Source: Dysidea avara (Eukaryota > Porifera > Demospongiae > Dictyoceratida > Dysideidae). Taken from it: DNA of 64,000 nt. The notes below the pieces were generated by a model, which saw nothing but the letters and a program-made list of their open reading frames with translations, was not told the origin of the DNA and did no database searches. Where the stretch lies: assembly GCF_963678975.1 (NCBI RefSeq), contig NC_089285.1, positions 11,766,694 through 11,830,693 of the forward strand, given 5' to 3'. Of this stretch, positions 27,090 through 63,589 are shown piece by piece (the stretch's first letter is position 1; each line of letters opens with the position of its first letter). A program made the translations under genes and the position numbers.

Positions 27090-27540
27090 TGGGCGGCTCC
27101 TATCGTGCCAGTGCTTAAGAGTGACAAAAAGAGTATGAGACTCTGTGGGGATTTTAAACGAACTGTAAATCAAGCTTGTAAGGTAGATAAATATCCAATT
27201 CCCAAGACTGACGACTTGTTCACCTTACTTAAAGGGGGAAAATCATTCACCACTTTGGACATGAGCCAGGCCTATCAACAGGTGTTGCTTGACGAGCCCA
27301 GTAGAAAGTTGGTGGTTATCAATACCCCTAAGTGAGTATTCCAATATACCCAACTCCCTTTCAGAATCTCCTCTGCACCGGGTATCTTCCAAAGGGTAAT
27401 GGACAGTTTGTTGCAGGGCATTCCGGGTGTGGTAGTATACCTTGACGACATATTGGTGACAGGCCCTGATGATGCCAAACACCCAGAATGTTGAAAGAAG
27501 TGCTTGGTTGGCTACAAAACGCTGGTAGATTAAAGGAGAA
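27090..27540 (+). mobile_element. Ty3/Gypsy LTR retrotransposon fossil, RT fragment
   Basis: The plus strand shows a reverse-transcriptase segment of Gypsy type: DWAAPIVPVLKSD, LCGDFKRTVNQ, FTTLDMSQAYQQV and the VVYLDDILVTG catalytic box. No gag, protease, integrase or LTR remains nearby. It is a short broken piece with a couple of breaks, truncated by the hAT fragment on its right. Age cannot be judged without LTRs. Confidence 0.85.
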
Positions 27541-27915
27541 ATGTCATTGTGACTGCAGGCTTCACAACATTATCTCTCACCTGACTGTACAGCCTGGGTA
27601 TTTCTTTCTCAGAAAAATAATTTCTTGAAGGTAAAGTATAATTTGGATCAAAAACGTTTACCATCTTCTGAAAATCCGGTTTCTCTACAGTGTAAAAGGG
27701 CTGCATATCTTTAGTGATAAAATAAGTAACAGCGTGATCCAGTTCTTTAGCTCTCTTCGAACCAGCCTCATAACATTTACCTCTCTGGATAGCTTCCCCA
27801 ATTGTAGGCTGATTGGCTGGTCTTTGTGCTACTAACTCAGCATATATTTCTGAGTGATTATCTTGTAAATGTGAGAATAAATTACTTGTGTTCGATCGCT
27901 TCGTTAAGACAGACT
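27535..27915 (-). pseudogene. hAT transposase N-terminal fragment (BED type)
   Basis: The minus strand encodes CHKSVLTKRSNTSNLFSHL (BED finger second half), then AVTYFITKDMQPFYTVEKPD, PSRNYFSEKEIPRLYS and QVRDNV, the usual N-terminal order of ZBED-type hAT transposases. The first finger cysteine and all of the catalytic core are missing. It lies between the Gypsy fragment and the PHD exon, and is distinct in sequence from the hAT at 24.5 kb. Confidence 0.8.
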
Positions 27916-28071
27916 TGTGACAGTGTCTATTGTATGTGTAGATCAATAGATGATGGAAGCCCAATGGTGTGGTGTGACAAATGCAATGAATGGTTTCACC
28001 TAAGTTATGCAAAAGCTAAGACAGTTGCAGAAGACAGGTGGTACTGCCAGACTTGCTCTCTAGCCAATTGA
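27913..28071 (+). pseudogene. PHD finger C-terminal exon, one zinc ligand lost
   Basis: After an AG at 27911-27912 the frame reads CDSVYCMCRSIDDGSPMVWC then DKCNEWFHL, SYAKAK, RWYCQTCSLAN and stop. This is a Cys4-His-Cys3 PHD finger as in histone-tail readers, but the cysteine expected after HL is Tyr (SYAKAK). A related finger ends the Ulp1-PHD gene at 56.8 kb, so this may be the tail of another such gene. No upstream exon found. Confidence 0.6.
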
Positions 28072-29505: not shown

Positions 29506-30312
29506 ATACATTAATAGACTACTAACACGTGTGAGCATGTGTAGACTCACATGTGCTTAAACTCTTACAGCTCACCGCTCCACATGTGACCCAAGGCCGA
29601 GGTGGCTTTTGCAGGGCAGAAGCAGCATTCACGTTGCACTGGGCCAACGCAGCTTCAACTGAACCGACGCGGCTTTTACCGGGCCAACGTGGCTGACCCT
29701 TCTCAGCCAACATAGAAACAAATATTCAAGTGGTGTAGAAACACAGGAATGGAGAAACAATAAAAATCCTGTCAAATTGCTTAATGTCCTACTCAAGTTT
29801 CACAATGCCCTGACTGTACGACAGGACATGTCTGAAAAGTTATTTTGCACACTGCAAGCCACATGCACCCACTCAACAGGGGAAGTGTAATTCCCAATTA
29901 ATGATCACCACAGTTGATAAGTACAAGACACGATGAAACTGGGTCTACAACGCCCAGGGGTATCTCATAAACTAACCGCCTACTCAGTATTCAGTGCTAC
30001 AACTGTCAAAGCACATGACTCAATATTCAGTGTTACGACTGAATCCCATTCACTTCTTGACGTCAAGAATGTGTGCCATTTCTATAAATTGTTTTCTACA
30101 TGATGGGCATTACATAGAACCTTGAGCAAAGGTACCACAAGTCACTTTGTCTAGAAAAAAGTATGTAATACTGACCCTTATCTGAACCTTGGCATGCATA
30201 GGACTAGTGTGAGTCATATTAAACAAGATTCCAAAAAGCAAGAATTTAATACAGAAAAGCTAGTGCCAGCAAGGAATTGTGACCAGATCCTTGGTAAATC
30301 AGTGTACTAGAA
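29506..30312. other. Spacer with a GC-rich patch
   Basis: 29590-29705 is GC-richer and contains loose repeats of GGGCCAACG(C/T)(A/G)GCTT, about 20-25 bp apart. The rest shows no gene. Confidence 0.35.
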
Positions 30313-30900
30313 GATAATACAGCCTTCTGAATACGATGATCTGCAATTAGTGGCTGCTTATTCCAAGCCATCACCAGAATTCCAATCTATGAAAAGCATT
30401 TTACTGCATTTGAAACTTCAAAAACATGCAGTAAGAGGAGACGGCAATTGCCTTTATCATGCAGTTGCCCATCAAGCTGGATTGATACCATCATCCAGTA
30501 GTGGTAATGAAGCAAAGTGCAGGAACCTTAGACACTTGACTTTTTTGACCATGTTGAATTATCCCACCATTCAGTCAGAAGGCTCGTTATCACAAGTGGA
30601 CTGGATGGACAAACAGCAAGCAGTACTACGAGACAATGAATGGGGTGGAGACTTAGAAATCCGACTGATGGCCATTGGCCTTAAGAAAGAAATGATTGTA
30701 GTTACTGACTCCACTGTTGGAAATGTTTTTGCCTGAAAATACCTTTACCAACCACCACCTGTTTCTAAAATGAAAGGTGGAGTGTTTATTCCATTGACTT
30801 GTGACGAGTTGTGTGCCCAGTATGATTCTTTGCCGTGTCATAATTCATTGGTTCTTTTGTACAATGGACATAATCATTTTGATTCTACCAGACCCTTGTA
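30313..30900 (+). pseudogene. OTU-family cysteine protease domain with one in-frame stop
   Basis: The frame contains the OTU catalytic signature AVRGDGNCLYHAVAHQ (Asp-Gly-Asn-Cys around 30435-30475), a middle region VLRDNEWGGDLEIRLMA, and the C-terminal histidine box LYNGHNHFDSTRPL before TAA at 30898-30900. OTU proteases are deubiquitinases. A TGA at 30734-30736 (after GNVFA) interrupts an otherwise continuous frame. No ATG at the start; an AG at about 30321 could be an acceptor, so upstream exons are likely. OTU domains are carried both by host genes and by transposons; I cannot tell which applies. Confidence 0.7.
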
Positions 30901-30992: not shown

Positions 30993-32490
30993 TTAACCAA
31001 CAAGGGGAGGACTAAAATTACATAGTATGGCACAGATATATATGATTTCATTGATGGAGTCCCACATGGTGGCACAAATTGGGGATTGTAAGATACGGAA
31101 TTCTTTGATTCTCCCAATGGCTCTCTCTACATGTATTCGCAGCTTCGCAATTTTCTTTGTATGCATAACATCTTCGCTAGAAAGCTGGCTGTTAGATGAC
31201 AAAAATGGAGGTATGTTTAACTTCACTCCAAGTGGTGCTAATAAATCTTGAATATCAAATCCTTTATCAGCCATAATCTCATCGCCTACTTCGAGTTTAT
31301 CCAATAATCCACTTTGTTCTACTAGCTTTTTATCTGATATTGACCCTTCATAGGTAGGAGATACAAAGACGACAACTCCGCTGGGAATAATTCCTATCAT
31401 CACCTTAACTGTATTTTTGTTCTTATACGACGAAAAGGTAGTAGCTTGTGTAACCAAAGAAGAAGGGCGTTCAATGCCAAATTCTGTACAATCAATCACA
31501 AGTCTCGTGTTCGGGTATTGCTCCTTAAAAGCTACCGGCATATACTTTTGTACTATGTGCCATGGTGGAAAACGTTCCAAACCCTTTAAACTGTGATACA
31601 GCAAGTTGATCCATGTTGCAATGATTCTGGACACACATGACTGTGACAAGCCAAACCTGATGGCTAGGTCTAGCTCAGGGTCGTTAAGCCGAAGTCTTAC
31701 TAGTGTAAGGAATAATTGCTCAAATAAGGGCAGTTTGTAATCCCTTCCCGTCTTTACATCATTATAGCTCTCCTTTGATTTTCCACCTCGCCACTGTCTC
31801 ATAACTTTTGCATCGGATTCCAAAATGATGTTGTAAAAAGTTAAAAGAGTATTATAGTCTGGGAAGCCAGTATAAAATGAAACTAAGCCATCGTCTTCCT
31901 TGATGTTTGCAAGCCGGAATAATGATTTCTCATACTTAGCTTGTGTTTTAGCTAGCTGTTCTGACAACTCTGCCACTTGAGCTTTCAAATAATCAACTGA
32001 ACTGTAATCAATATCTTCTGTATCAATTTCAAAGAACCTACTTAAAGATGGTCCAGAACTAACACTGTCCTCCTCAGAAAAAGATGAATCACTTTCTAAT
32101 ACCAAAGCTGCTCTTTGAGATGTGGTGGTTGTGCGCTTTTTGATACTGCAGCTGGGCCAAGAAAATAGTGAAGGAACCGCCGTCTTTGTCAGCATACGCC
32201 TAGCTGCTTGCGGATCCTCTCCACCACAAAGATAATCCTCTGGTTTAAAATGCTCAGAACATACTTTAGTGTATTCATTGATCACAAAGTCTGGCCCAGG
32301 GTCTCGTCGTATCTTAACAATCCATTCTTTAGCCCTTTCTTTGTCTGTAGACAAATTAGGAAATGAATGAAAAGAGACTCTAGCACTACCAAGTTGCCTT
32401 CGTTCGGCTGATCCACCAGATGCGTTACGACACGAGGGAACACAGCAATATTGACCCTCCTGACGCCATCTCGGATGCTTATCACTGACC
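30993..32490 (-). CDS. THAP-DDE transposase, ISL2EU/Harbinger-like (DDE_Tnp_4 type)
   Basis: One long open frame runs from an AG acceptor at about 32491 to the stop at 30993, close to 500 codons. The first internal ATG would cut the THAP finger, so an upstream exon probably supplies the start. THAP ligands: YCCVPSC, then VCSEHF. A Ser-rich linker and a coiled-coil stretch (YLKAQVAELSEQLAKTQAKY) follow. The helix-turn-helix is near LAIRFGLSQSCVSRI. Catalytic core: LVIDCTEFG (Asp), IMADKGFD (Asp) and HVERAIGRIKEFR (Glu). THAP binds DNA ends and the core cuts and joins them. No stop or frameshift seen. The YqaJ-type partner common in ISL2EU was not found, nor were terminal repeats. Confidence 0.85.
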
Positions 32491-33077
32491 TGTTTTAAGA
32501 AACCAGCATTACTTCACTGAATCGAGGAAGAAATACTGTTCAGACATTCATATATATATACCACAATACAATATTTGTACATAACTCATGTTGAAGGCCT
32601 TTGTACGCTGGGTACACGAGACACTTAAGCAAGAACTCCAATACCAAAGATAACCCTGATATACAAGCATGCGTATTAAGAAAAACAAATCTTTAATTGT
32701 GCATGCTGCAAGACAAGTACACTAGTTTTATGGAGCAGTTATTCAGAGAAACAAAACTCAAATCAATTTAAACTATATGCTGTCTTATTAGCCTATTAAT
32801 GGAGAGTTCTAAACATTTTTGGTATTGGTATTCATGTAGATTTTAAATTGCTATCTTTCTCTGTTACAAGCAGCTGTCAACATTGTCATGCAACAATTAC
32901 ATAAAGGGTCTAAATATGCAAGTTAGACGTCATAACGGCCCTGTGTCATGGCAACTGAGCAAAGGGGATGCTGCTACAGGACCCAAGGGGAGTCAAGGGG
33001 AGTGTGGAAAACCCGGAATGCTAGAACAATCTGGATCAGCTTTATTTTTGTGATAGTGATCACACGCAAATACTATA
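32491..33077. other. Upstream region of the THAP-DDE gene, no further exon identified
   Basis: The first exon and promoter of the minus-strand transposase should lie here, but I could not fix them. No other gene seen. Confidence 0.35.
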
Positions 33078-35179: not shown

Positions 35180-37156
35180 TAGTGTCTTGTACCATGTATT
35201 TATTGTTGTGTAGTCTAAGATAAAAGTATTATCCTTAAGCGTGCAATTATTACCGGTCAGATACGACAGTGGCGAGGATATAACCACGGCTACTCATGGC
35301 AGGCACCATTGTAGCGTTTTCCAGTTCACAAGAAACATGGACAGTGTACGTCGAGCGACTCGAACAGTACTTTACAGCCAACAAGATAGAGGATGCAGAC
35401 CAACAGAGAGCAATACTCCTCAGTATCTGTGGACCAGCTACCTACCAGCTCATTTGCAATCTGGTGTCCCCTAAGAAGCCAACGGCGTTCAAGATCGAGG
35501 ATCTCATCACCATAGTACAGAAGCATCATGATCCTAAGCCGTCAATGATTGTGCAGAGATTCCGATTCAGTGGCCGTAATTGTCATACAGGAGAATTAGT
35601 CACAGCTTATGTTGCAGAGCTACGCCAGCTTGCAGAACACTGTCAGTATGCCACTAACCTCAACAATATGTTACAAGATCGTCTAGTTTGCGGAGTAGAG
35701 GATTCCAGAATCCAGCGCCAACTTTTAGCAGAACCGGAACTCACCTTTGACAAGGCTTTCGAGATAGCTATGGCATCTGAATCTGCAGAAAAGGATGTGA
35801 AAGACTTACAGTCCCCTGTCCCTGTTAATGATCTGAAGACTCATGGTACATAGAATCCGTGCTACCGATGTGGAGAGAAACACAAGACAGCTGATTGTTG
35901 TTTTAAGACTGCGGAATGCTGCAAATGCAAGCAGAAAGGACACATTGCTCGTGTGTGCAAAAACAGCCCTTCCCACAACAGAAAGATGGTATCACGTCTT
36001 GTCCTACTCACATAGTAAAGGAGGAGGAAGATGATTACTCCACTTACAAGGTCACCGCCACATCTGTGAAACCACTTCTAGTGCCAGTGAGTATTGACAA
36101 TGCTAGTTTGGAAATGGAGGCATACACCAGAGCTTCAGTTTCTATTATCATTGAAGAAACTTTCAATTGTCTGTGGTACCTAACCTTTCTACATGTCTTG
36201 CTCCTTTGTACAGCTTGCTACAGAAGAAGCATCATTGGTCATGATGAGAAAAGCAACGTAAAGCTTTTGAGAAGGCCAAGGCTTTGTTGACATCTTCAAG
36301 TGTCTTGTTGTTGACATCTTCAAGTGTCTTGACACACTATGACCCATCCAAACCACTGATTTTGGCTTGTGATGCATTCCCTTATGGAATTGGTGCAGTT
36401 TTGTCTCACCAAGTTGGAGATGATGAACTGCCAGTTGCTTTTGCTTCACGTTCTCTGGCACCTGCAGAGAAAAATTATGCACAAATAGACAAGGAAGCAC
36501 TTGCCATTGTTTTAGGAGTCAGACATTTTCACCAGTACTTGCACAAACCCCTACAGCACTTCTTACGAGAGAAAAGGTATTCCGGTGATGGCATCAGGAA
36601 GAATACAACGATGGGCCTTAACACTGGGTGTGTATAACTACACAGTGCAGTATGTGCCTGGTAAGGATAATGCAAATAGTGATGGTTTCAGCCGATTGCC
36701 ACTATCAGTGCAGCCAAAAGATGTACCGATGCCTCAAGAGTTAGTGTACTTGTTAGAAGGCTTGGAGATTTCTCCAGTAACAGTGGTATCATGGACTGAT
36801 CAAGATCCTATGTTGTCCAAAATACACAGATTTGTGCAACATGGCTGGCCACAAGCAGTTGATTCAGTACTTAAACCATATCAATCAAGACAGTTGGAAA
36901 TCCTTAGCTAAGTTGTACTGTGTACTTTGATTTGTTTTTGTACTTAGCTAAGTAATTACACATGCATTAGCAGCTTTTCTTATGGTTATGTTAATTGTAT
37001 GTAATAGAGTAAAAACACACTATTATGGTAACGTGCTATTTAAGGTTTCTTTTTTATAGCATAAATATAGTGTCTTGTACCATGTATTTATTGTTGTGTA
37101 GTCTAAGATAAAAGTATTATCCTTAAGCGTGTAATTATTACCGGGCAGATACGACA
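35180..37156 (+). mobile_element. Ty3/Gypsy LTR retrotransposon fossil, internally deleted
   Basis: A 90-bp LTR end is shared by 35180-35268 and 37068-37156 (TAGTGTCTTGTACCATGTAT ... CAGATACGACA) with about two differences, so the copy is fairly young. The 3' LTR may begin near 36914; the 5' LTR is truncated. Between them lie a gag region (35296-35853, AGTIVAFSSSQETWTVYVER) with a following zinc-knuckle stretch, and an RNase H region (36284-36540, [33 protein letters not shown]) plus the region after it. Reverse transcriptase and integrase are missing. Several breaks; not functional. Confidence 0.85.
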
Positions 37157-38966: not shown

Positions 38967-39821
38967 TAACACCCTTTTCATATGGCCACCCAAAAGTGGG
39001 TTCAACCCCAGTTGAATAACCCACTTTCAACCCAGGTTCAACCCAGTTTTTGTTCACAAGCAATCATCACATGATGGTATTCATTGAGTGATAATTGTCT
39101 TCTATGCATTTTATGTATTCATTTAAAACCGCAACTCGCTTTTGAAGCTATAAACTGAGTTCAACCCGAGTTCAACCCGAGTTCAACCCTACTGCTTTGT
39201 AGGGTTGAACTGGGTTATGACTTCTGGGTTCAACCTGGTTATGGTCATATGCAGTGCAGTGTTGGGCAAGTTACTTTGTAAAAGTAACTAGTTATATATT
39301 ACATATTACTTGCAACAGAACTATTTAGTTACAGTTACATATTACCCATAAAATAAAGTAACTGTAATAATATTACATATTATATTACTTTGTGTCCACA
39401 GCCTTAAGCTGTCACGTGTGAAACTACCATCTTATCACGTGACATGATTGCGTTGTTGGACATTGTGCAAATCTTGGTTATAAGTAAGAAGCTAGTGAAT
39501 AAGCTTCATTCAGTAGGCCTCATTACTTCGTTGTGGTTAGACGTTACTCAGAGGATTACTAACGAGATTAGTAACTTCGTTACTTTTAGTAATAATATTA
39601 CGTCATATTAGACTCGTTACAGCAATTATATTACTTAGGTAACGCTTTACGTTTGTAAGTAAAGTATCTTGCGTTATATTACCTGTTTTCATAGTGTATT
39701 TCGTTATATTACTTTGTTACCACAAAAGTAATAACGCGTTACTCCCAACACTGGTCATATGAATACGTTAACCCGGGTTGAATGTGGGCTGGTTTAAAGT
39801 GACCATATGAAAGGGGTATAA
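38967..39821. mobile_element. Harbinger-like MITE with TAA duplications, host of a nested hAT MITE
   Basis: CACCCTTTTCATATGGCCAC (38970) is inverted at GTGACCATATGAAAGGGGTA (to 39818), and TAA flanks both ends (38967-38969, 39819-39821). A 3-bp TWA duplication suits PIF/Harbinger. The left interior has repeated GTTCAACCC(G/A)AGTTCAACCC motifs in both orientations. It was later split by the hAT MITE at 39252-39753. Confidence 0.75.
39244..39761. mobile_element. hAT MITE, CAGTGTTGGG family, copy 2, nested
   Basis: The exact 8-bp duplication GTCATATG flanks it (39244-39251, 39754-39761). Left end CAGTGCAGTGTTGGGCAAGT has its first five bases doubled; right end CCCAACACTG. Very similar to copy 3 at 43739-44298 in inverted orientation. 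Confidence 0.9.
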
Positions 39822-40527
39822 GGCTGTATTCTTCGATATCCAAGTACGGAAATGACAAATACAAGACAAGTTGATGGAAAATCACAGTTTTGATGCGCAT
39901 GTGGTGTAATATCAGCATGTCTAATCTTACAAGTTGGACTTCTAGCCTTGAGGGCCTTCAGGTCATGGATGGTGGCAAAAGAATACGAATATTGCCTGGT
40001 GGCAACACTTATCTCATTCATCAAATTTTTGATCGAAGTTTTCCTGAATGGTCCCAACAAGGGGTAGTGCTAAAAGCCGGAACAGAATGGAACGGAACCA
40101 ATTGGGGCACGCGCCAAGTAGAAAAATCGTTTGATATGGATTTTGCATTGTTTCCAACTGCCACACAGTGACTACAATTGTGCTAGAGTTCATTTCCTTC
40201 TACTTATATGCAAGCTAGAAATCGCACTCTCGAAGTTTCTATTTAATGCCCGCCATGTAGCATGTTGTGCTCTTACTAATCCATCAAATTGTGATGTAGA
40301 ATTGCTTCCTTATCATTCTAAAAGGTAAACTATTGTAGTATTTTCATGTTACAGTCGTGTCCAACTCTTTAGTAACAGCGAGGATGGTTTTCTGAAGTCT
40401 GCCAGCATGGGAAATAATAGACTCTTTCCAAAAAAAAAAAAAACGTCACTGCTTAGCAACCATCTTTCCAACATTTTGATTGGGACCAACCCGTAATTAT
40501 TGATATTGGTGCAGGTAGCGTTCGTGA
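39822..40527. other. Anonymous stretch with one 93-codon frame
   Basis: Open frames on both strands (39890-40171 + and 39794-40060 -) overlap and neither shows a known motif. GC content is a little higher than around it. Possibly 5' sequence of the THAP remnant. Confidence 0.3.
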
Positions 40528-41247
40528 TGTCTCATAATTGCTGTGTCCCGTTGTGCAAGAAAAAAGGATACAGAACAATTTTAGTTGACGGAAAAGAAAT
40601 GAAAGTATCGTTCCACACCTTTCCAGATGCTTCTAAAAATGAACTAAGAAAGCATCGGTTAATAGCTATTCACCGTGATATTGGTAAGTAGCTAGTCGAG
40701 CTAGCTAGCCGCTATATATAGCTACAAGCTAGCCTTGTGTGTGTAGTCATGTATGGTTTTTTTAGGTACTGTTTTGTTTTCCAATAGGTGAGGACTTTCA
40801 ACCTGGACAACCAAGATATGCTCATTACATTTTGAGCCAAAAGATTTTTATAATTTTTGGGGTAGTTATAGATACCTTAGGGAAGATGCTGTTCCATCCA
40901 TTTTCCCTTTTAAGCTATCCGTATCAAAAGGTAGAACAACACGAGTTTCTCGTGGTGAGGTAGAAAGATGCTCAGAAGCTGCAAGTCAGCCTTCCCTCAA
41001 GCTACCCAAAGTGATGATGACGCTGAGACTGATACAACATCAGACTGTGATTGCCAGTATGTGTACAACAGACTTCAGAAGGACTTAAATGAAGCCACAC
41101 AAGAGATATAAAGATTGAAGAAACTACTTGAAGAAAGCCAACATACAGAGCAACAATTAAATGAAATGAACTCAGAGTGCAGTAGACAGCAGAAACTAGC
41201 TGAGAAAGGAAGATTTTGTTTTTCCAACTTTGAGACTGTAGTGTAAT
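40528..41247 (+). pseudogene. THAP-domain transposase N-terminus, decayed
   Basis: Exon 1 (40528 to a GTAAGT donor near 40684) reads MSHNCCVPLCKKKGYRTILV, FHTFPDASKNELRKHRLI: the first half of a THAP finger. After an intron and the AG at about 40787 come FQPGQPRY and, in another frame, CSLHFEPKDFYNFWGSY with the Cys-x2-His ligands, then REDAVPSIFPF. An acidic linker and a Glu/Gln-rich coiled coil (KKLLEESQHTEQQLNEMNSE) lead to a TAA at about 41247. One base is lost before CSLHF, a shift occurs near 41010 and TAA interrupts near 41109. No DDE core follows. Confidence 0.7.
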
Positions 41248-41384
41248 AGCTAAATAATGTAATGTAATGTTGTACTTATAATTAGATAGTAATATAGTGT
41301 GATGTAATTCCACATGTATTCTAATACTTTAAGACTGTATTGTCATCCTTGCCATCGCGGTTAGCACACGGTGACAGGACTGGG

Positions 41385-42960
41385 ATCTCTACGAAAAAGA
41401 GATTATTAGACTGTTATTTTGCTAATGGCGTCATATCAAGTGGCTCCACCGAGTGCCTTCAACTTCTCCAACCCTGAGGAATGGCCAAAATGGATTCGCC
41501 GGTTTCAGAGATTTCGTCAGGCATCTGGTTTGTATAGGTAATCACACACATTTGAGTACAATTATTCCATAATTGCAGAAATTCCATAATTGCAGAAAAT
41601 GCGTGTGATTGCCTACTAATCACATAGTGACCACCCTTCGTGGTTTGTAGTACACATCTATCCAGTTCTATGTGGCCATTAAGTTCTACCAGGTGATTGC
41701 ATCATCATACATCATTTGTTGTTGCTCTGGAAATTCTTACAATCAGTACTGGAACTGAGCCATGGATGGTTACTATTTCATTGAACACATTCCGGTCAAT
41801 TTTCAGATTGACACAGGGGCTGATGTCAGTGTCATTCCAGAGAAGCTTTATAAGAAGCTACAGGCACCACTACTAGAACCTACCAAGAGATCCCTCATCG
41901 GACCTAGCCAAGATAAGCTACAAGTACGAGGACAGTTCACTGGTACTCTTGTACACAACAGTAGAACAGTGCAAGAAGTAGTCTACGTGGTGTCTGCATT
42001 ATTGACCACTTTTATTACACCTATGGGAAGATTTTGCTTTAATCATTTGCCATTTGGCATAACATCTGCTCCAGAGTTTTACCAGAAGAGGATGTCCCAT
42101 ATTTTGTCTGGCTTACCAGGTGTGGTCAGTATGATTACAGTAATGTCTTGTTTACCAACTACAGAAAGGCAACTTGCTGAGGTGAAACAGAAACAAGCAG
42201 TTGAAGACATACTTCTCATTATCAGCTGAGTTGACAGTTCAACATGACATTCTGATGCGTAATCACCGAATTGTGGTTCCGTTGTCTCTGTGTCAAAATA
42301 TTCTAGCCAGATTGCATACAGGACACCAGGGGATCACAATGTGTCCTTACAATCTGTTTGGTGGCCCGGCCTGTTAGAACAACTAGTGCCAACCTGTGTG
42401 GAGTGTTGTAGAAACAAGCACCAGAATGCTGAACCTTTACTACTAGCTTCATTTCCCAAGCTTCCATGGCAAAAAGTTGCCATTGATTTGTTTGTGGAAG
42501 AATTTGCACTATCCTTTGGTCATTGATTACTTCTCTAGATATATTGAGATAGCGAAGCTGACTTCTGAAAGTACAGGTTGTGTCATTAAACACATGAAAT
42601 CAATCTTTGCGAGGCATGGGATACCACAAGAGTTGATCTCGGACAATGGTCCACAGTATTCTTCGAGGGAATTTACTAATTTTGCTAAGGAGTATGGATT
42701 TGTACATACTACTAGTAGTCCTCAGTATCCGCAGGCAAATGGCGAAGCTGAGCAGGCGGTGAGAACGGTGAAAACACTTCTTGAGAAGTCAAGTGATCTA
42801 TACCTTGCTTTGTTGACATATCGGGCTACACCAATCACAAACACTGGCTATAGTCCTGCAGAATTACTCATGAACAGAAAGATTAGAACCACCTTACCAA
42901 TTTTACTGCAGGATAAATCGACCCTCCGTAAGAGATTTGAGCCGGACAGTAGACGAGAGC
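41385..42960 (+). mobile_element. Ty3/Gypsy LTR retrotransposon fossil
   Basis: Order of parts: a gag start (near 41424, ASYQVAPPSAFNFSNPEEWP), an aspartic protease (41762 on, VNFQIDTGADVSVIPEKLY), a short reverse-transcriptase piece (PMGRFCFNHLPFGITSAPEF), an integrase zinc region (ARLHTGHQGI) and the integrase core (42477-42950, VIDYFSRYIEIA, LISDNGPQYSSREF, SSPQYPQANGEAEQAV). Large parts are missing. Broken, with several breaks. No LTR pair recognised. It ends abruptly where the gag of another Gypsy begins. Confidence 0.85.
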
Positions 42961-43734
42961 TTTATGCAGTCAAATTCCAAACCAGGAGGCGTCAAAAGGG
43001 AGAGTTATGGGCGGAACTGGTCGACAATTTACGGTTGTTCGCTGATAAGGTGTTTCCTGACTTAGAAGAGCCAGCGAAAGAACAACTATCTCTGGACAGA
43101 TACCTTTCTTTACTAGACGGCCCTCAACTAGCCTTAGCAGTTAGGCAGAAACGCCTTAAAGACGATGGACAATGCTGCTGCGTTTACTCTAGAGATTGAG
43201 TCCTACTTGACGGTGCACCCCCTTCCAATTAGCAACAAGTCTGTACAGTATCAGACAGACAATGTTCCCTACGCATCAGTTGCAGCAATTCACATGCAAC
43301 AAGGTGAAACTATTAAGAAGATGCTAGGTACCCTTAACATCCGCCTTGAACAGTTGGAAAAGACCGTTTACAAAGGCAACCGGCACTCACAACAGAACGA
43401 TGCAGCCACCAACAAGCCTCGAGGCCCAGTGATATGTTTGGAGGTGCGAAAAGAAGGGGCACTTCGCCAGGGGGTGTGCCACCACCCGTCAGGGAAACTG
43501 ACTGCCCTCGATGCTACGGATCAAGCAAAAGAGGGCTATAATATTGTGACCCATGAAAATGAACCCTTATGTGATTTTATTGATGTACCTGAACATAGTG
43601 TTAATGAATCAAAGTTATTGGCTGTGAATCCTGCCGCAGCATACCATGTTGTTGTATCTATAAAATTTAATGGGGTTAGTATTAAATTTATGCCAGATAA
43701 AACACACAGCCTTCAGCTGGGTACTGATATATAG
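42961..43734 (+). mobile_element. Second Ty3/Gypsy fossil, gag to protease region
   Basis: From about 42961 the sequence changes to a Gypsy gag of a different family (FQTRRRQKGELWAELVDNLR, DRYLSLLDGPQLALAVRQKR), continuing at 43165-43734 through a linker and a Cys/His stretch to a protease-adjacent segment. The open frame 42477-43199 runs across the junction with the first element. Fossil, broken in a few places, ends next to the hAT MITE. Confidence 0.75.
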
Positions 43735-44306
43735 TAATCAGTGTTGGGTGTAACGCGTTACTTATGTAACGCGTTACATAAGTAAGTAATATTATTACTT
43801 TTGTTACCACAAAAGTAATAATATTACTTTTGTGGTAACAAAGTAATATAACGAAATACGCTATGAAAACAGGTAATATAACGCAAGATACTTTACTTAC
43901 AAACGTAACGCGTTACCTAAGTAATATAATTACTGTAACGAGTCTAATATGACGTAATATTATTACTAAAAGTAACGAAGTTACTAATCTCGTTAGTAAT
44001 CCTCTGAGTAACGTCTAACCACAACGAAGTGACGAGGCCTACTGAATGAAGCTTATTCACCAGCTTCTTACTTATAACCAAGATTTGCACGTTGTCCAAC
44101 AACGCAATCATGTCACGTGATAAGGTGGTAGTTTCACACGTGACAGCTTAAGGCTGTGGACACAAAGTAATATAATATGTAATATTATTACAGTTACTTT
44201 ATTTTATGGGTAATATGTAACTGTAACTAAATAGTTCTGTTGCAAGTAATATGTAACATGTAACTAGTTACTTTTACAAAGTAACTTGCCCAACACTGAT
44301 AGTAAT
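43731..44306. mobile_element. hAT MITE, CAGTGTTGGG family, copy 3
   Basis: An exact 8-bp duplication ATAGTAAT (43731-43738, 44299-44306) flanks 43739-44298, which begins CAGTGTTGGGTGTAACGCGT and ends CTTGCCCAACACTG. Most of it matches copy 2 inverted with few differences, so both moved recently relative to copy 1. Confidence 0.92.
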
Positions 44307-50814: not shown

Positions 50815-51113
50815 GTTTTAGGGGTGGAGGGGGGTTTCTGAGGTTTCCAAAAACCCCTCTAGGATGGGCTTGCTTCAGAACAGCTGTCCAAACATTAAGC
50901 AATAGCTATCCAGCAAACCTTTATAAGATCAAGATACTCTAATAGAACAGTCAATCAAATCCTCCAGATGTGTACCTCTGGAAATCCCCTTTCAAAAATC
51001 CAGCTATCCAGCAAACCTTTATAAGATCGAGATACTCTAATAGAACAGTCAATCAAATCCTCCAGATGTGTACCTCTGGAAATCCCCTTTCAAAAATCCT
51101 AGATCCACCCCTG
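50815..51113. mobile_element. Small element with CAGGGG termini and an internal 96-bp duplication
   Basis: CAGGGGCGGTTTTAGGGGTG on the left pairs loosely with CCTAGATCCACCCCTG on the right, the latter also present near 4804. Inside, about 50905-51000 is duplicated at 51001-51096 (CAGCTATCCAGCAAACCTTT ... CCTCTGGAAATCCCC), each copy with TACTCTAATAGAACAGTCA. Flanks share ACAGC only. Confidence 0.5.
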
Positions 51114-51216
51114 ACAGCAATTAAATTAAACCCCTTTTGCTAACTTATTCCCTCAAAATAAAAGTTAATTGATAAAGTACAGAATTTTTTGTAGCTATTA
51201 GTGATTGTTCTATTAA

Positions 51217-51323
51217 AGGTCAACTGAAATGGGAAAATTTTTTTTGCTAAATATGTTTGTTTACTCATGCAATGCACAGAACAACAATTTTTATAATTCA
51301 ATTATGTGTAATTGTCGAGTTAC
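51217..51323 (+). repeat. Left terminal inverted repeat
   Basis: 107 bp from AGGTCAACTGAAATGGGAAA to TTGTCGAGTTA. It differs from the right copy by a few single-base changes and homopolymer lengths. The transposase promoter presumably lies in or just after it. Confidence 0.95.
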
Positions 51324-51481
51324 GACACCTCAAAATTGTGGACGAAGATTTGTGGTTATTATTGCGGAAGCAACGTCAGGATACATCACCTCGAGCGGAA
51401 GTGTACGTGATGACGAAGGCAGTAGTACGACTACAAGAGAGCTTATCATCACTATCACGTACAATTGTCAAGTCTTTAGCT

Positions 51482-54156
51482 ATGCCTCGACGTTGCGTTG
51501 CTGCTGATTGTAAAACTACTAGCGGGATGGGGTACAGTTTGCACTCCTTCCCTACAGACGAGAATATGCGACGACGGTGGACAAGTGCTGTGAAGCGATA
51601 CAGAAAAGACTGGAATGGCCCCTCGACAAGCTCCCTTTTGTGCTCAAGGCATTTTACTGAAGATTCCTTCGAGACAGAAGGATCCCTGTATCGTGATACC
51701 TTTGGAATTCCTGCCCAGAAACGCCTAAAGCCAGGTGCTGTACCTACCGTCTTTCCAAAAAGCATCGACCAATTGCACACTAGCAGCAGCAGTGCTTCAC
51801 ATAGTCGTCCATTATCCGAAAGAAGAGAGCAAAGATCGGTAAGCCCATACTACGTAGTACACATGCAATAGGTATATCATTATACAAGTTAGCTAGCTAT
51901 ATATTATTACGTGTACAATTACAAATAATGTCAGTATTAAAATTATTGTTGTGATACAGGTGGTAGAAGAACTCCTCTCTGCAACTACAAGTGCTGAATC
52001 AACTCTTGAGCATATGGATACCACTAATTCCACTGTACAACTTCCTTTGTGTCGTGATCCTATGTCTCACTCTTCCACAATGCCTGATCCACCTACACAA
52101 GAGAAAAACCCTAAGAAGAAGTCCGTATCTGTGACTGTTCGTGTCAAAGGGAAGAATAAAGGTATAAAATAGATACAGGTGTAATAGTATAGCATGATAT
52201 AATAACATCATGTTCCTCTATGATAGCAACACAGACTGACACTTGTCCTCAACAAATCAGTATTGGCACACAATGCAACTTGTTAAATGCCCCACCTCTG
52301 CAAAGGCTTCCACAGGTGACATCACTTGACGATTCCTTTGTCACTGAAGAGGAAACAGATCTGGACACATCATTTTTGTCAAACCAAGAAGACTACACCA
52401 CAGAGTAAACACATATAATAGCAACACAAAAATTGAATAATATACCTTTGTGATATCGTAGAGATGACACACAAGAGCTACCACCTCAGGATGAAGTCAA
52501 GTTCCTTGTGTATAGGTCCCATCTGTTAAGCCTATTCACAGCTTGCAGATCATGCCACCAACTATGTGATGGTGAGGTTGCCAACCTGAAGGGTACTTTT
52601 ATCAGCATCAGACAAAGCTGCCATCACTGTGGATACACATGGGTATGGAACAGCCAGCCATTTATCAGAGACACTCCAGCAGCAAACATACTGTTGTCTG
52701 CAGCAATTTTATTTAGTGGTTCCACTCCTGGAAAGATTTTCCACTTTTTGGGGTGCTTACGTGTAGCATGCACCACAGATAGAACATTTCACCTCCACCA
52801 ATCACAGTATCTCCAACCGGCTGTTATATCTGTATGGAACCACCACCAACATCAGATACTTTCAGCCATCGCAAAGAAAGACTGCCCTCTTACAGTTGGT
52901 GGAGATGGAAGAGCTGACAGTCCAGGTCATTCAGCAAAATATGGATCATATGGTGTTATTGACCTGGATACAAACAAAGTTTTACATATTGAACTTGTAC
53001 AGGTATAATTGTCAAGCATACACTTTAATGTTTCAATTAAATTTCTGAGTTACAGAGCAATGAAGTGAAATCCAGTAATCATATGGAGAAATTTGGATTG
53101 GTAAATGCTCTTCAGTTTTTGGCTGACAACTCATTGCAAGTGACAACACTAGTAACTGACCGTCACAAGCAAATTGCCAAGTACATGGCTGAGGAAAAGC
53201 CAGATATTGAACATCGTTATGATGTGTGGCACATATCCAAAGGTGTATATATATATACAGCTGCATAATAATAATTAATATCATTGGTTAACAGGAATTA
53301 AAAAGAAATTAGCACCCTTGGCAAAGACCAAGCAGTGTGACCTCATTGGAGAGTGGATCAAGAGCATTACCAATCATTTGTATTGGTGTGCTGCCTCTGC
53401 TCCAGATGGTGATGGTGATGAGATAGTGAAGCGGTGGAAGTCCTTGATGTACCATGTTTGCAACACACATGAAGATTGTTACCATGACCCTCTAGATAGC
53501 CTAGAAGAGAGACGAAAGAAATGGTTTATACCAGGTCAGCATAACTCTACTTTTATTTAACATGTGGACAGTTGTTGTGCAGGGAGTAAGGCAAGTGAGA
53601 AACTTGACACTGTGGTGGCCAACACCAGATTGTTGCAGGACATGAAGAAGCTATCACCATTATACCAAACCAGTAGCTTAGAGGCTTACCACAGTGTGAT
53701 CAATCACTTTGCCCCTAAGCTATTGGCATTTTCAGACCATGGAATGCATGCAAGGTGACTGATGTGCAATTGAGCTCCATTGTGCATACACTTCAAACTA
53801 GATTACTGATAGCAGCACTACACTTCAATGAGAATTTTGGGAGGGAACAAGCTACAACTGCAGCTGGAGCAGAACGAAAGCGCATCTGTTTTCCTAAACC
53901 TAAACAAGGAGAATTTACACCAAAGCCAATTCCTGTTCCTAAAACCTACAGTTAGTTGTGTGTATTCGTTTATTGTTTGATTAATGTAATGCATTCTATA
54001 GATTACGTTGCTGAACTAACTGAAAAGACCATACAGTACTGCATGAAGGATGATGAGGATAAGCCCACACTACCCCCTCATAAACCATCATTAGCAAGTG
54101 CATACATACACCCAGATAAGGACCACATTCCATTATTTTCACGTTATAAAAAATAA
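51482..54156 (+). CDS. THAP-DDE/E transposase, Kolobok-like, nine exons, intact
   Basis: Exons 51482-51838, 51960-52161, 52227-52404, 52462-53002, 53056-53242, 53295-53534, 53583-53754, 53802-53950 and 54002-54156 join with consistent phases and GT-AG introns of 47-121 nt to 726 residues. The start is chosen because MPRRCVAADC begins a THAP finger (C5, C10, C54, H57); an in-frame ATG at 51257 lies in the terminal repeat. A Ser/Thr-rich linker (120-245) precedes a Cys pair region (RSCHQLCD, CHHCGYTW). The core has GGDGRADSPGHSAKYGSYG (D394/D398), LVTDRHKQIAKYM (D461), YDVWHISKGIKKKL and SSLEAYHSVINHF (E602), the likely catalytic acids. It should bind the ends and move the element into TTAA. 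No stop or shift. Confidence 0.9.
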
Positions 54157-54208
54157 AGAGTGACTTGATATTAATGTAATTTATAGACATGCATATGTAC
54201 ATACATTA

Positions 54209-54972
54209 CTATGGTGTTGGTGGTGGAAATTGATGACCTGTGTAATCATCAGAAGGAAATTCACTCCTTATTCGTGATACTGCACAAGAAGGGAGTACCA
54301 CACGTCTGTGTCGGCCCAAGTAGCCCCAACCCCACCACGCCAGTTGTCTGTATGCCAGAAACCTAAACTTTCTACGAAGAAATAATTATTTATAATTATA
54401 AGACTTCATAATTAACAATGGAAAAATCACCTGTTCTCCTCAGCAGGGATATCACTAGTTCCATAATGGTGTCGGTGGCCATGAGAGGCTATCAACAACA
54501 CAACTCTACACAGGCAAGCATTGGCAAAGTCCATGTGCTGTGTGATACAAACAGGAACAGGATCACCAACCAACAGATTTTTGATTTCGTCAATTTCTTG
54601 ACAGCAAACAGATTCCCTGGCTGTTGGCATTGGCTGGCAGTGATAGCACGTGCACCTGAACAAATAACTTGACTAACTGAGCATTAAATAGTCCCCATTC
54701 ACTTACCAGTTCGTGTTTCCAATTCGCTCTTCGCCTGAGTCACCTGCTACTACAGTCGTTTCATCTTCAGATTCGCTGTAGGTCCCGGAACGTCTCTCTG
54801 GTTCGAACAGATATGGTAGAACTTCGTCACGAGCGGGTTCGTCCACCTCCTCTGGCTCTGATATCGCTTCGCTGTCTTCACTGAGATCTGTCGAATAACA
54901 CACAGAGCCTGACAGTATCGAATCGCCATCAGACTCGGAGAGAGAACTCGAGGTTAACACTTCACCTGCCAT
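54209..54972 (-). CDS. P2X7-type intracellular (ballast) domain protein, three exons, intact
   Basis: Exons 54972-54707, 54655-54431 and 54371-54209 join with good GT-AG introns (51 and 59 nt) to 217 residues. Residues 1-88 are acidic and Ser-rich (SESDGDSILSGS, LSEDSEAISEPEEVDEP), likely disordered. Residues 89-217 carry the P2X7 C-terminal signature: CTCYHCQPMPTARESVCCQE (C90, C92, C95, C106, C107), then FANACLCRVVLL, and after exon 3 FLAYRQLAWWGWGYLGRHRR followed by VVLPSCAVSRIRSEFP. In P2X7 this region binds a dinuclear zinc site and guanine nucleotides. There is no transmembrane segment or ATP-binding ectodomain, so it is not a channel. It lies wholly inside the transposon. Its role may be regulation of transposition, DNA or RNA binding, or host interaction; unknown. 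Confidence 0.9.
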
Positions 54973-55087
54973 TGTCGAAATATGACAGTGTAACTGTTGT
55001 ACAACTTTTACGCGGTGGCTCGAGTTGACGTCATAAGGTTGCGGTTGATTTTCCCGGATATGACGTTTCGCTGCTTTTAAAGCTTTA

Positions 55088-55192
55088 TAACTCGATAATT
55101 ACAAATAATTGAATTATAAAATTGTTGTTCTGTGCATTGCATGAGTAAACAAACATATTTAGCAAAAAAAAATTTTCCATTTCAGTTGACCT
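55088..55192 (-). repeat. Right terminal inverted repeat
   Basis: 105 bp, read on the minus strand AGGTCAACTGAAATGGAAAA to TTATCGAGTTA. The ATG of the P2X7-domain gene lies 115 bp inside its inner edge, so both genes start close to almost identical ends and may share promoter elements. Confidence 0.95.
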
Positions 55193-55196
55193 TTAA

Positions 55197-56848: not shown

Positions 56849-57721
56849 TCAATCATTTACACACTTACTGCAAACCCACTGAACATCGCTCTCAGTGAAA
56901 ACTTCCTTGGGAATATTCTCACAGGAATGATGGTACCATTCGTGACATTTCTCACATGCTGCCATTGGTTCTCCTCCCACCAACTCTGGCAGACGACAAG
57001 AGCAGTATATGTCAAAAGTAAGTGTGGTGGGCGAGGCCTTTCTTCTTCTGATTGACTTAGATGGAAATGGAACCAATTTTTCTGATCTAAGACACTCTAC
57101 AAAATGAGGCCTTAACTTGTCTTGATAGTAACGCAAACAAGAGACATCATTTCCAAAACACAATTCAGTTGCATATGCTATTGAAAATAATCCACAGTCA
57201 CTGCTTCCAAGCTGTTCTTGCATTGTCTACAATTGAAAATTAATGGACTTACTGGAGCTCTGTATAATTGCAGCAATTTGAGCTTGCACATTTTCAATGC
57301 TGGCATATTCCATGTTATCATATACTTTTACTAAAGATGAGTTTACTCCTTTCACTGTCAACCAGTGATTTTTAGGATGTAAAATCTGCACAAACGGGCT
57401 ATCAGTGTTGGGAAAAGACAAATCTTGTCCATACTTTGTGTCATGTAAACCCAAAACAGAAGGAAACTGAGCCTTTAGAAGCTGACTTGCTGCATTAATG
57501 TGAGTGTCGTTCAACCACTTTCCACTCAATATGCACTGTAAAGAAGGAAGTTTGAAGGATACTAAATGCTTCACGGTTTTTCTACTGTCTAGTTTTTGAC
57601 GTCGTATCTTTGATTTTGATAAAGGCTTGTCACTATTATTACAATTCGTAATTTCAACATCATCAGACACTTCATAATTCTTAAATTTCCCTACAAATAG
57701 ACCACATTTCCTTAAATTCAT
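56849..57721 (-). pseudogene. Ulp1-like (C48) protease fused to a PHD finger, one in-frame stop
   Basis: From ATG at 57721: a basic lead (SKSKIRRQKLDSRKTVKHL), then the C48 core with SGKWLNDTHINAASQLLKAQ, HPKNHWLTVKG (catalytic His), VKVYDNMEY (Asp) and QLGSSDCGLFSIAYATELC (Cys), then a PHD finger near the C-terminus (CSCRLPEL, ACEKCHEWYHHSCENIP, WVCSKCVND) and stop at 56849. One TAG at 57229..57227 interrupts between Asp and Cys; otherwise the frame is continuous over about 290 codons. It is unlike the two SENP genes in exon structure (intronless) and looks like the transposon-associated Ulp1-PHD type of marine invertebrates. The PHD would read histone tails. Confidence 0.8.
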
Positions 57722-58857
57722 TACACAATATTATGTAGAACTATATATACACTACTACCTAGCTGTATTTAATTTTAATCAAACAAAAATTGGAACCTAT
57801 GCAAAACAACATATAATAGCTGTGGACATCCAGTACATGCAGCAGAATTCACTAGCACATGACGACAAAAAGTAGTGATACCAGAGTGCAACCATACGTG
57901 AGGTGTGCTTGTTACGTACGTATCATACAGTACGACAGTACGGTATAGTAGGGACATTGGTGATTTGTGGACGTGGTCCATGAAGAAATCAACTTAAACT
58001 TATCTTCACAAATCCTTCACGACCACTTGGCAGTATTGGTCATGCAGAAACAAGCCAAACTGTGTCTTTAGAACAACTCTAAGTGTTTTTGACGAGGTGC
58101 TATGATATTTAAGAAAAATTATTTAGCAAATATTCTACTGACTGTCTTTCTGCCTGATTCATTCAGTCAAGCGTAGTGGAAAACTGGCTGCAGCTACAGC
58201 CTTACTTCTTTGGTGGAAATGCCTAGAATTTCAAGGCGGAAAACTTTTCACAATTTTAAGCACTATTCTGTTACAGTTTTAGCTTTGATCTTTCTTTATC
58301 TTGGCCATTGCTCATCTATATGGCTTCCATTAGTAGTCAGTAAGCAGTACTGTACAATCAACACGTATGACTTAACAAATTGTAACACTCACGTGATTTT
58401 ATTTGAGATACACCATGGGTAGGGACATGCTTGTATGCTGCAAAAGGATCACAGAAGGTCCGGTGGGGGTACAGCTGTACAGGTACTCACGGGTTAAATA
58501 GAGGGCATGACCAGTTTGCTAGCTACTAGCTAAATAAAGGGCGTGTCACCTGACTTTGCTAGCTGTAAACCTAGCACATTTATGCTGGAATGCACTATTG
58601 TACTGTATATGGCTTCCCACTAATTACACCAATGTTTCACACTTGTGCCGATTTCAACAGTGTGTTGTGTTATCTACTTTACCATGCAGTTAGTTACTCT
58701 TGTACATCATCGAGAATGTACGTGCTTAAAAGTATTTAGTGTGCTTCTTTTAAGCAAGGTTAACTAGCTAAGCCAGTGCCTTTCTTTGCTGTGATTAACA
58801 CACTCTAGACACAATTGTGTGCTAAATAAAATTCATTTACAAAAAAGAGTACACAAA
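57722..58857. repeat. Family B copy 5 and anonymous sequence
   Basis: 57945-58215 carries family B landmarks (TATAGTAGGGACATTGG, TTGGCAGTATTGGTCA, CATTCAGTCAAGCG, GGAAAACTGGCTGCAG). 58216-58857 shows no gene; the 70-codon frame at 58210 is anonymous. Confidence 0.5.
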
Positions 58858-59477: not shown

Positions 59478-60709
59478 TTATATAATCACGCTTCCTGTAG
59501 TGCTAAACGCAGCCATAATATTTATAATTGTCATGCTTTTCATCCAAGCTTTTGAAAATAAAGGAGAAAAATTGTATAGCGTAATCAGTTTTCCAGGGTT
59601 TTGAACAATATAATCATGACATACCTTCCTCCACTCAACTTTTAGACGCCCGTACATACCTTTATCCAAAGGTTGTGTTAAATGCGTTGTATTAGGTGGC
59701 AAAGCCCTCAGCACCACTTCATTTTCAGAAGCACGGTGAATAACACTTGGACAATAGTGTGCGGAATGTCCATCCATCAATAAAAGTAGTGGTCTAGTCG
59801 ATGGAGTATAGCACAAAAAGTGGTCAAACCACTGATCAAACAGGTCTTGATCAATCCAACCTTTGGAAGACAACCCATAGATTGTACCAGGAATTTCATT
59901 TTCCACCAACGCAGCACTGATAGCTTTGTGACCATAGATGACCATAGGAGGAATACAGTAGCCTGCAGCATTGACACATCCGACTATAGTAATTTGAGAC
60001 TTGTTACCTGAGCATATTGAAGCCGGATTCTTTGATCCTGTGCCACAAACCATTTTTAAAGGTTTGGGATTAAGAGGCATACCAGTTTCGTCAACGTTAA
60101 ACAGCTGGCAAGGTTTATCACGAAGGTCATATAAATCCATGGTGCTTTCAAGAAGATCATAATATTTGTTAATAACAGTAGTGTCTGACGCTTTAGCTCT
60201 GGAAAGGGATAAGGAGGCGGTAGCACGCAATGCTACATTAGGATGACAGTGGCAAAACAATTCCCACCAACCATGTGTCACAGTTTTTTCAATCCCACAG
60301 TCACTTAATAGACGCTGCACCATACCAATCCAATTGAAGCACACTCTAACAGAAAGTGTACAAGCTCCTCTTCTTGCTGTGTGTTGAGATACCTAAGTGG
60401 ACCACTTCTAGCTCCCTCCATCACACGCCCACTTATTCGATCTGCAGTTGTGGATTTTGGTATGCCATACAATTCCCCTGCTTTTCTTATACTAGCTTTC
60501 TTCTTAAGGACACTGTCAACTGCGCGAACCATTCTATCTTCATCCCAATCTTTGTACACACCTCGGCTAGTAGTAGCAATACTGGTATTTACAACTGTAC
60601 ATCCGACAGATTTTGCCTTGATGACACTTTCCTTGAGTGGTGGATAAAACTGAGCCATGCATATATGTTCCGTTCCAAAAATGGATGGAAATGGTGGACC
60701 TATTATCAT
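59478..60709 (-). pseudogene. pogo/Tigger-like (Tc1-mariner) transposase with a small internal deletion
   Basis: N-terminal part (60650..60305): YKDWDEDRMVRAVDSVLKKK, ASIRKAGELYGIPKSTTADR (Psq-type helix-turn-helix) and EEELVHFLLECASIG. C-terminal part (60344..59478): MVQRLLSDCGIEKTV, THGWWELFC, then the DDE_1 core with QLFNVDETGMPLNPK (first Asp), LLLLMDGHSAHYCPS (second Asp) and TTHLTQPLDKGMYGRLKVEW (third Asp). At about 60330 the two frames overlap and roughly ten conserved residues between SIG and MVQRLL are missing, so a small deletion has shifted the frame. Catalytic residues are kept. No PHD or CENP-B tail beyond 59478. Terminal repeats not found. Confidence 0.8.
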
Positions 60710-60794
60710 CCACTTTTGGAAGGTTTTTAATATTACTCCAAAAGTGGATTGAAATGACGCATTCCCCTATATAGTGACCAAAATGAGTAATAAT

Positions 60795-62253: not shown

Positions 62254-63051
62254 TTACTCCAATCTTTGTGGTTGGTGTCTTTGCCTTTTAGGTTTTCTAA
62301 CAGCCAAAGGTGTGAAATCCGGTCTTTTTCTCTGTCTGGTTTTATTATTACCAATTTGTTGACCTCCAGATTCATCATCTTCATCTTGGGGATCTCTAAA
62401 TTCATCGTCTTCTATTTGAGGACCTCTAGATCCATCATCTTCAATTTGGAGATCACGAGGAACAGGAACACGTTCACGTGTATCCTCTGCATCTGGCTGA
62501 ATGTATGTACGAACATCCAGTCCATGATGAGTATAGCATGCTGTGATTATTTCTCGTAGAGCAATGCTCCAATTCCCTATGTTGATACACATCAAAAACT
62601 TTTTTCATTGTGGTAACTAACCTTCAAACTCTGGAGCAGGCTGTGTCACATTGACAAATGGCACAGTATCTGGCCACCATTCTGGCTTGTCAGAATTCCA
62701 TGAAAGTTTGAGATCTTTCATTATGCCCCGAATTAAAGCTTTCATTGTAATTCCATTTAGGCTATATAATGAATCTGGCAAAGGGGGTAACAAAACTTTA
62801 CTAGAGCTCTCCATCTCCTCCTTTTGCCAATCTGGATCTAAGAGTATCTCATCCTTGTACTTCTGCACCACTTTGGAAATTCTTTCATCTCCAAAAACAT
62901 AGAGACCATTGGTCTTTGTGGTAGAATATGCGACAGCAACAGCCACTCCCAAACCTTTCAATTCCTGGCATTTCTTAGAAATCACATCCAACTTTCTCTT
63001 GATATCCCTGGCATTGTTATTTACTACTTTTGAAGTCATCTTCAGATCCAA
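62254..63051 (-). CDS. Intact two-exon protein of unknown function (KPEWWP motif)
   Basis: Exons 63051-62622 and 62576-62254 join across a 45-nt GT-AG intron to 250 residues. The N-terminal helix region (NNNARDIKRKLDVISKKCQE) may be a coiled coil. The central block is GITMKALIRGIMKDLK then KPEWWPDTVPFVNVTQPAPE, running into NWSIALREIITACYTHHGLD across the splice. The tail has acidic repeats (QIEDDGSRGPQIEDDE) and a basic end (RKRPDFTPLAVRKPKRQRH) like a nuclear localisation signal. The WWP-xx-(P)F/W-V plus LR-I-xxCYxxHG pattern recalls small proteins found near transposons in corals and fish; I know no function. Probably nuclear and nucleic-acid or protein binding. Confidence 0.75.
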
Positions 63052-63589
63052 GCTTTACTGTTACTAAATGACTGATAAAAATCTGACTTCAGCTTTTAAG
63101 GGTTTGAGGTTGCTGAAACAGCAAAAATCACACTTCTTTGAAGTCTTTGACACAAACAAACCTTTGAATTAAAACTGTCTACTCAGCTGCACAAAATATT
63201 TTATTTAGTCTTAAAAGTTGTAGAAAAGGTCCTGGAGGCTTTTATAAGTAACCCGAAGTCTGGAGTGCTGTTTTTTAAAAGGGTTTTATCAGTCCCCAGA
63301 TCAATGAGGGCTTCAAATAATAATTAAATTACCAGTACAGCCACACTAAGTAAAGTTCACCTTTTGGCAAGTTAAAAACAACATTACTGGTTATAAAGAA
63401 CTGTTGATAGGTGTTAAATAAGTTGAAGCCTTTGCACACTATATAGTTATTGATAGTTCTACACAGTGTGTTTGCTGAGTTTGACACAGTCTGTCTTGTT
63501 AATACTACTATCATCAGCACCTGTCCTACATGCAGGACAACTAAGAGAGGGGTCTTCCTACTAAAATTTAATTTGATTTTTCCATATAG
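63052..63589. other. No gene seen
   Basis: Upstream region of the minus-strand 250-residue gene and of the plus-strand exon starting at 63590; contains a pyrimidine-rich acceptor (TTTTCCATATAG, to 63589). Confidence 0.4.

Follow-up and report, generated by a model that had tools for sequence, protein, structure and literature searches.

The window, that is, the whole 64-kb stretch of Dysidea avara DNA that we analysed, carries a transposon of 3,984 bp at 51213-55196, both TTAA target sites included. Between its terminal inverted repeats (TIRs) lie two convergent genes, one for a THAP-DDE/E transposase of the Kolobok type and one for a KolX-type protein (Table 1).

Table 1. Features of the transposon, with positions in the window.
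Feature	Position	Strand	Basis or detail
TTAA target site, left	51213..51216	.	sequence
Left TIR, about 106 nt	51217..51322	+	5' start AGGTCAACTG; aligned with right end
THAP-DDE/E Kolobok-type transposase, 9 exons, 726 aa	51482..54156	+	hand splice model, GT-AG introns, PF05485 and PF20700
Transposase exons 1-5	51482-51838, 51960-52161, 52227-52404, 52462-53002, 53056-53242	+	hand splice model
Transposase exons 6-9	53295-53534, 53583-53754, 53802-53950, 54002-54156	+	hand splice model
THAP zinc-finger domain, exon 1, residues 5-91	51494..51754	+	PF05485, E 1.5e-15; coordinates calculated from residues
Interval between convergent stop codons, 52 nt	54157..54208	.	sequence
KolX-type protein, 217 aa	54209..54972	-	exons 54972-54707, 54655-54431, 54371-54209; hand splice model, PF20478, PDB P2X7 match
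Right TIR, about 105 nt	55088..55192	-	CT-3' end; aligned with left end
TTAA target site, right	55193..55196	.	sequence

An earlier, sequence-only reading of this DNA had placed the element between these same two TTAA sites, with inverted repeats of about 105 bp, and its coordinates proved exact. When the two ends were aligned with TTAA included (110 nt on the left, 109 nt on the right), 105 of 110 columns were identical, the differences being four mismatches and one gap. Without gaps, the match fell into two blocks, one of 79 nt (97%) and one of 47 nt (83%). We scored pairs of TTAA sites spaced 500-10,000 bp apart over 30 inward bases, with ten first-order Markov windows as the control. The window contains 396 TTAA sites; read inward from 51213 and 55193, 28 of the 30 bases match. 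The best pair in the control windows reached 21 of 30, and eight of the ten had no pair at 20 or above. Thus, the TIR match at 51213-55196 is far beyond chance expectation. The termini read AG...CT, following the Kolobok 5'-RR...YY-3' rule. To the left of the transposon, 113 nt away, two 98-nt units that are 99% identical stand in tandem (50904-51099).

Counting the transposon's own, four TTAA pairs in the window matched at 24 of 30 bases or better. We rejected the others, 39404/44151 (29/30) and 15152/20840 and 15152/19948 (25 and 24/30 between them), as relatives because the ends compared were unlike the TIR: 39404, 44151, 15152 and 20840 scored 14, 14, 20 and 23 against it, which is no resemblance (19948 was left out of this comparison). 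The 39404/44151 pair scored higher than the transposon's pair, but its TTAA falls within an inverted repeat of 477 nt that belongs to another element. That element (39257-44298) has inverted ends that are 98% complementary. It contains an integrase frame (42447-43196; rve, E 1e-14) and a second frame (41759-42226) whose aspartyl-protease matches fall below the Pfam cut-offs; when read, its flanking sequence showed no evident duplication of a target site. Two TIR patterns, each allowing up to three mismatches, found no copy in the 64-kb window beyond the transposon's own two ends.

Several further frames are present in the window. A second THAP transposase occupies a single open frame of 506 aa on the minus strand (30996-32513; THAP, HTH_Tnp_4 and DDE_Tnp_4), adjoined by an OTU-like cysteine protease domain on the plus strand (30311-30733, E 1.4e-08). 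Frames resembling hAT lie at 24634-26268 (+) and 27533-28015 (-): the hAT dimerisation domain is in 25915-26268, 24634-25911 has no Pfam match, and 27533-28015 has a BED finger below cut-off. A retroelement remnant (35284-36911, +) includes an RNase H domain (36248-36634, E 1.3e-30) and a weak PNMA/gag-like match below cut-off (35284-35850). Beyond the right end of the transposon, the minus strand holds a frame that ends in a PHD finger (56852-57226, E 4.8e-07), with no Pfam match in the frame upstream of it (57230-57730); a transposase in two overlapping frames with HTH_psq and DDE_1 (59481-60766), presumably pogo/Tigger-like; and an Nrf1 DNA-binding domain match just below the Pfam cut-off (62620-63054, E 0.00014).

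The transposase combines the THAP DNA-binding domain (PF05485) that is usual in Kolobok (PMC6004289), accompanied by an AVPTVF box, with a match to the Mutator-like transposase family (PF20700, E 7.5e-12, best stretch residues 430-551). MULE (E 0.00073), DDE_Tnp_ISL3 (0.21) and HMG14_17 (0.26) matched below the cut-offs, and piggyBac and P-element families were absent among its five Pfam matches up to E 1. A PDB search returned three sequences, all THAP domains. The motifs follow in order: a DGR block with D394/D398, D461, D482-V-W-H485 (DxxH) and E602. By motif and order, this is the Kolobok DDE triad with DxxH between the second D and the E. A zinc finger between C/DxxH and the catalytic E has been reported for almost all Kolobok elements, Kolobok1 excepted (PMC9587614). 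Here, a C/H-rich, zinc-finger-like stretch (residues 516-552: H516, C520, H542, C544, H547, C550 and H552) lies between DxxH and E602, and the 141-residue interval D461-E602 has no recognised nucleotide domain. We set the exon borders of both genes by hand from the reading frames; all ten modelled introns (eight in the transposase gene, two in the second gene) are GT-AG and measure 47-121 nt, a shortness that would suit a sponge. Because the borders were chosen to keep the frames open, the intact status of both genes is partly one of construction.

The same reading had described, convergent to the transposase, a 217-residue protein made of an acidic lead and the P2X7 C-terminal cysteine domain. 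Our three-exon model on the minus strand bears this out. The first 85 residues are acidic (24 D/E, 4 K/R and 21 S/T), and residues 78-208 match PF20478 (P2RX7_C) with E 4.9e-15 over profile positions 70-189 of 192. The best PDB match is P2X purinoceptor 7 (9e3m, E 2.5e-5; residues 87-211 against chain positions 474-592), and P2X7 makes up four of the six distinct PDB sequences matched. We set aside NDUFA8 (8iuf, E 0.24), and likewise DfmD (9j0j), which outscored all but one of the four P2X7 sequences (E 9.8e-05) with an aligned stretch that starts in an apparent His-tag/protease-site leader. Aligned with two P2X7 tails, the protein is 35% identical to each, and seven cysteine columns are invariant: C90, C92, C95, C106, C107, C125 and C193. 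The CC pair was left unaligned by phmmer against 9e3m, unlike in the alignment with the P2X7 tails. The P2X7 ballast is reported to have seven conserved cysteines and two zinc ions (PMC9587614), and the seven found here probably correspond to those zinc-site residues. In rat P2X7, five residues coordinate GDP: R546, H547, R574, R578 and K583 (PMC7016195). On the assumption that 9e3m chain numbering equals rat numbering, two of the five are kept (R546 as R167, R578 as R199) and three are replaced (H547 by F168, R574 by V195, K583 by S204). The transposon has, on the minus strand between its TIRs, the second protein expected inside a Kol0 element, as judged by PF20478 and by comparison with P2X7 sequences.

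Kojima and Bao (2022; PMC9587614) reported that Kolobok elements target TTAA and have 5'-RR/YY-3' ends, unlike piggyBac. Kol0 elements, which they found in vertebrates, annelids, cnidarians and sponges, encode a DDE transposase together with KolX, a protein that is similar to human P2X7 476-595 and takes on the cytoplasmic ballast fold. The element at 51213-55196 combines the TTAA target, AG...CT ends, the DxxH signature and a KolX-type second protein. On these grounds we hold it to be, very probably, a Kol0-type member of the Kolobok superfamily, present as a full-length DNA transposon of the cut-and-paste kind that appears intact; the assignment was made by motif and order in a single copy. 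The sequence-only reading was thus right to identify a Kolobok-type TTAA element with a P2X7 ballast domain. It had also taken the pairing to be undescribed, which does not stand: KolX, its ballast fold and its pairing with Kol0 transposases are all in PMC9587614. The two-gene pairing is real, and it is a further example of a layout published in 2022, not a discovery.

Could this one copy of a THAP/DDE Kolobok-like transposon have acquired its ballast-domain gene from the host by chance? We examined one copy, and stand-alone ballast genes occur in many animals (PMC7016195). However, a layout with two proteins is what characterises Kol0 in different phyla according to PMC9587614. Moreover, the second gene sits entirely between the TIRs and is separated by 52 nt from the stop codon of the transposase, its frame is open under the splice model, and it matches most of the domain profile. 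We regard such a chance capture as highly improbable. A piggyBac-type element would also use TTAA, yet none of the five Pfam families listed up to E 1 is piggyBac (THAP and Mutator-like matches appear instead), the ends are AG...CT, and all seven cysteine columns are present here whereas piggyBac proteins are reported to lack most of them (PMC9587614), which leaves this identity with next to no likelihood.

How ballast genes are distributed among animals has been read in two ways. Rump (2020; PMC7016195) described stand-alone ballast (ZCD) genes across Metazoa, reported as not found in fungi, plants and bacteria, and took them to be host genes of an old family whose neighbours are conserved; no word beginning with "transpos" occurs in the main text of that paper. 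This published range makes an animal host most likely for the element described here. Kojima and Bao, on the contrary, read them as parts of Kolobok elements. In their account, a P2X4-like gene fused with KolX to give P2X7, and Nanor probably descends from a KolX that was domesticated (PMC9587614). The suggestion in the sequence-only reading that Kolobok-like transposons may spread ballast genes or have given rise to them agrees with the latter account. Rump also reported two markers that accompany ZCD genes in animals ranging from sponge to mollusc, arthropod and echinoderm, and took this linkage as ancestral synteny (PMC7016195). If one of these markers is a Kolobok transposase, the linkage may be partly the transposon itself. 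That an immune ion channel owes its ballast to a DNA transposon protein is striking, and was published in 2022 (PMC9587614).

We sought relatives in prokaryotic, viral and phage collections, where misses are uninformative on animals. KolX gave nine pattern matches in viral contigs, none confirmed, and no tblastn match against phages. None of the pattern matches to transposase exon 4 was confirmed either (22 in viral contigs, 46 in prokaryotic genome contigs), nor were those to the KolX/P2X7 alignment (67 and 21, respectively).

What might KolX do? Judging by the family, binding of the transposon ends is probably the task of the THAP domain, while cutting and joining at TTAA would fall to the RNase H-like DDE core; KolX would consist of its acidic lead and a two-zinc ballast fold as in the P2X7 tail. 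Kojima and Bao class KolX as an accessory protein of transposition, and they report that accessory proteins differ by Kolobok lineage (nucleases, a helicase, KolX), some lineages having the transposase only (PMC9587614). Because several lineages have an accessory protein of their own and others do with the transposase, we favour a role of KolX in the reaction or its control, and a ballast protein as transposition accessory is plausible. Our leading proposal, to which we give about an even chance, is that KolX, stabilised by zinc, works with the transposase in the nucleus as its structural or regulatory partner. Among the matches listed, we found no experiments on the role of KolX in transposition in open-licence PMC papers. 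The element described here, as an apparently intact two-gene copy, could be used for asking what KolX does in transposition.

KolX might instead repress transposition or modify host transcription, rather than help. The acidic, Ser/Thr-rich lead would suit regulation, and for Nanor, which is related, PMC7016195 passes on the hypothesis that it regulates transcription. The sequence, however, does not separate a helper from a repressor, and we consider this possible but rather unlikely.

The P-element transposase, whose superfamily shares the C/DxxH motif (PMC9587614), depends on GTP that is bound by its insertion domain (PMC7776569), and the P2X7 ballast contains a GTP/GDP site to which no function has been assigned (PMC9859053). 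Together with the lack of a recognised nucleotide domain in D461-E602, these observations raise the idea that KolX serves in trans as a guanine-nucleotide-binding module, helping to place the transposon ends in the active site as the P-element transposase does in cis. If true, the GDP-binding tail of P2X7 would be a relic of a transposition cofactor. The replacement of three of the five guanine-nucleotide contact residues counts against this reading, and we judge it quite improbable.

Among known systems, P-element and THAP9 transposases share with the transposase an N-terminal THAP domain and an RNase H-like core (PMC7776569), and the C/DxxH motif is common to a superfamily group that includes P and Kolobok (PMC9587614). 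The P element differs in that its transposase contains a GTP-binding domain (PMC7776569); the element here has a TTAA target, long TIRs and no P-element Pfam family up to E 1. The Xenopus Kolobok transposases resemble the transposase here in having a THAP domain and AVPTIF-type box, a DDE triad and a C/H-rich motif. The paper on them (PMC6004289) treats the transposase only, and the words "KolX" and "P2X" are absent from it.

The KolX-type protein has the WCxCxxC, CC, CIT and LPSC cysteine pattern of the P2X7 ballast and ZCD proteins, including Nanor and Panther PTHR36981 (PMC7016195), as well as their AYR and RIRxEFP blocks. Invertebrate ZCDs are reported to keep only the R546 and R578 equivalents (PMC7016195), the same two GDP contacts that are kept here. 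Unlike P2X7, the protein stands alone, has an acidic lead, lacks the P2X channel part and lies inside a transposon; unlike the ZCD proteins, it has Leu where Rump reports a conserved Y/F553 (PMC7016195). With the Kol0 lineage, for example Kolobok-1_XT (PMC9587614), the element shares the TTAA target duplication, RR/YY ends, a C/DxxH DDE transposase and a KolX with the ballast fold, and among these compared features we found no difference.
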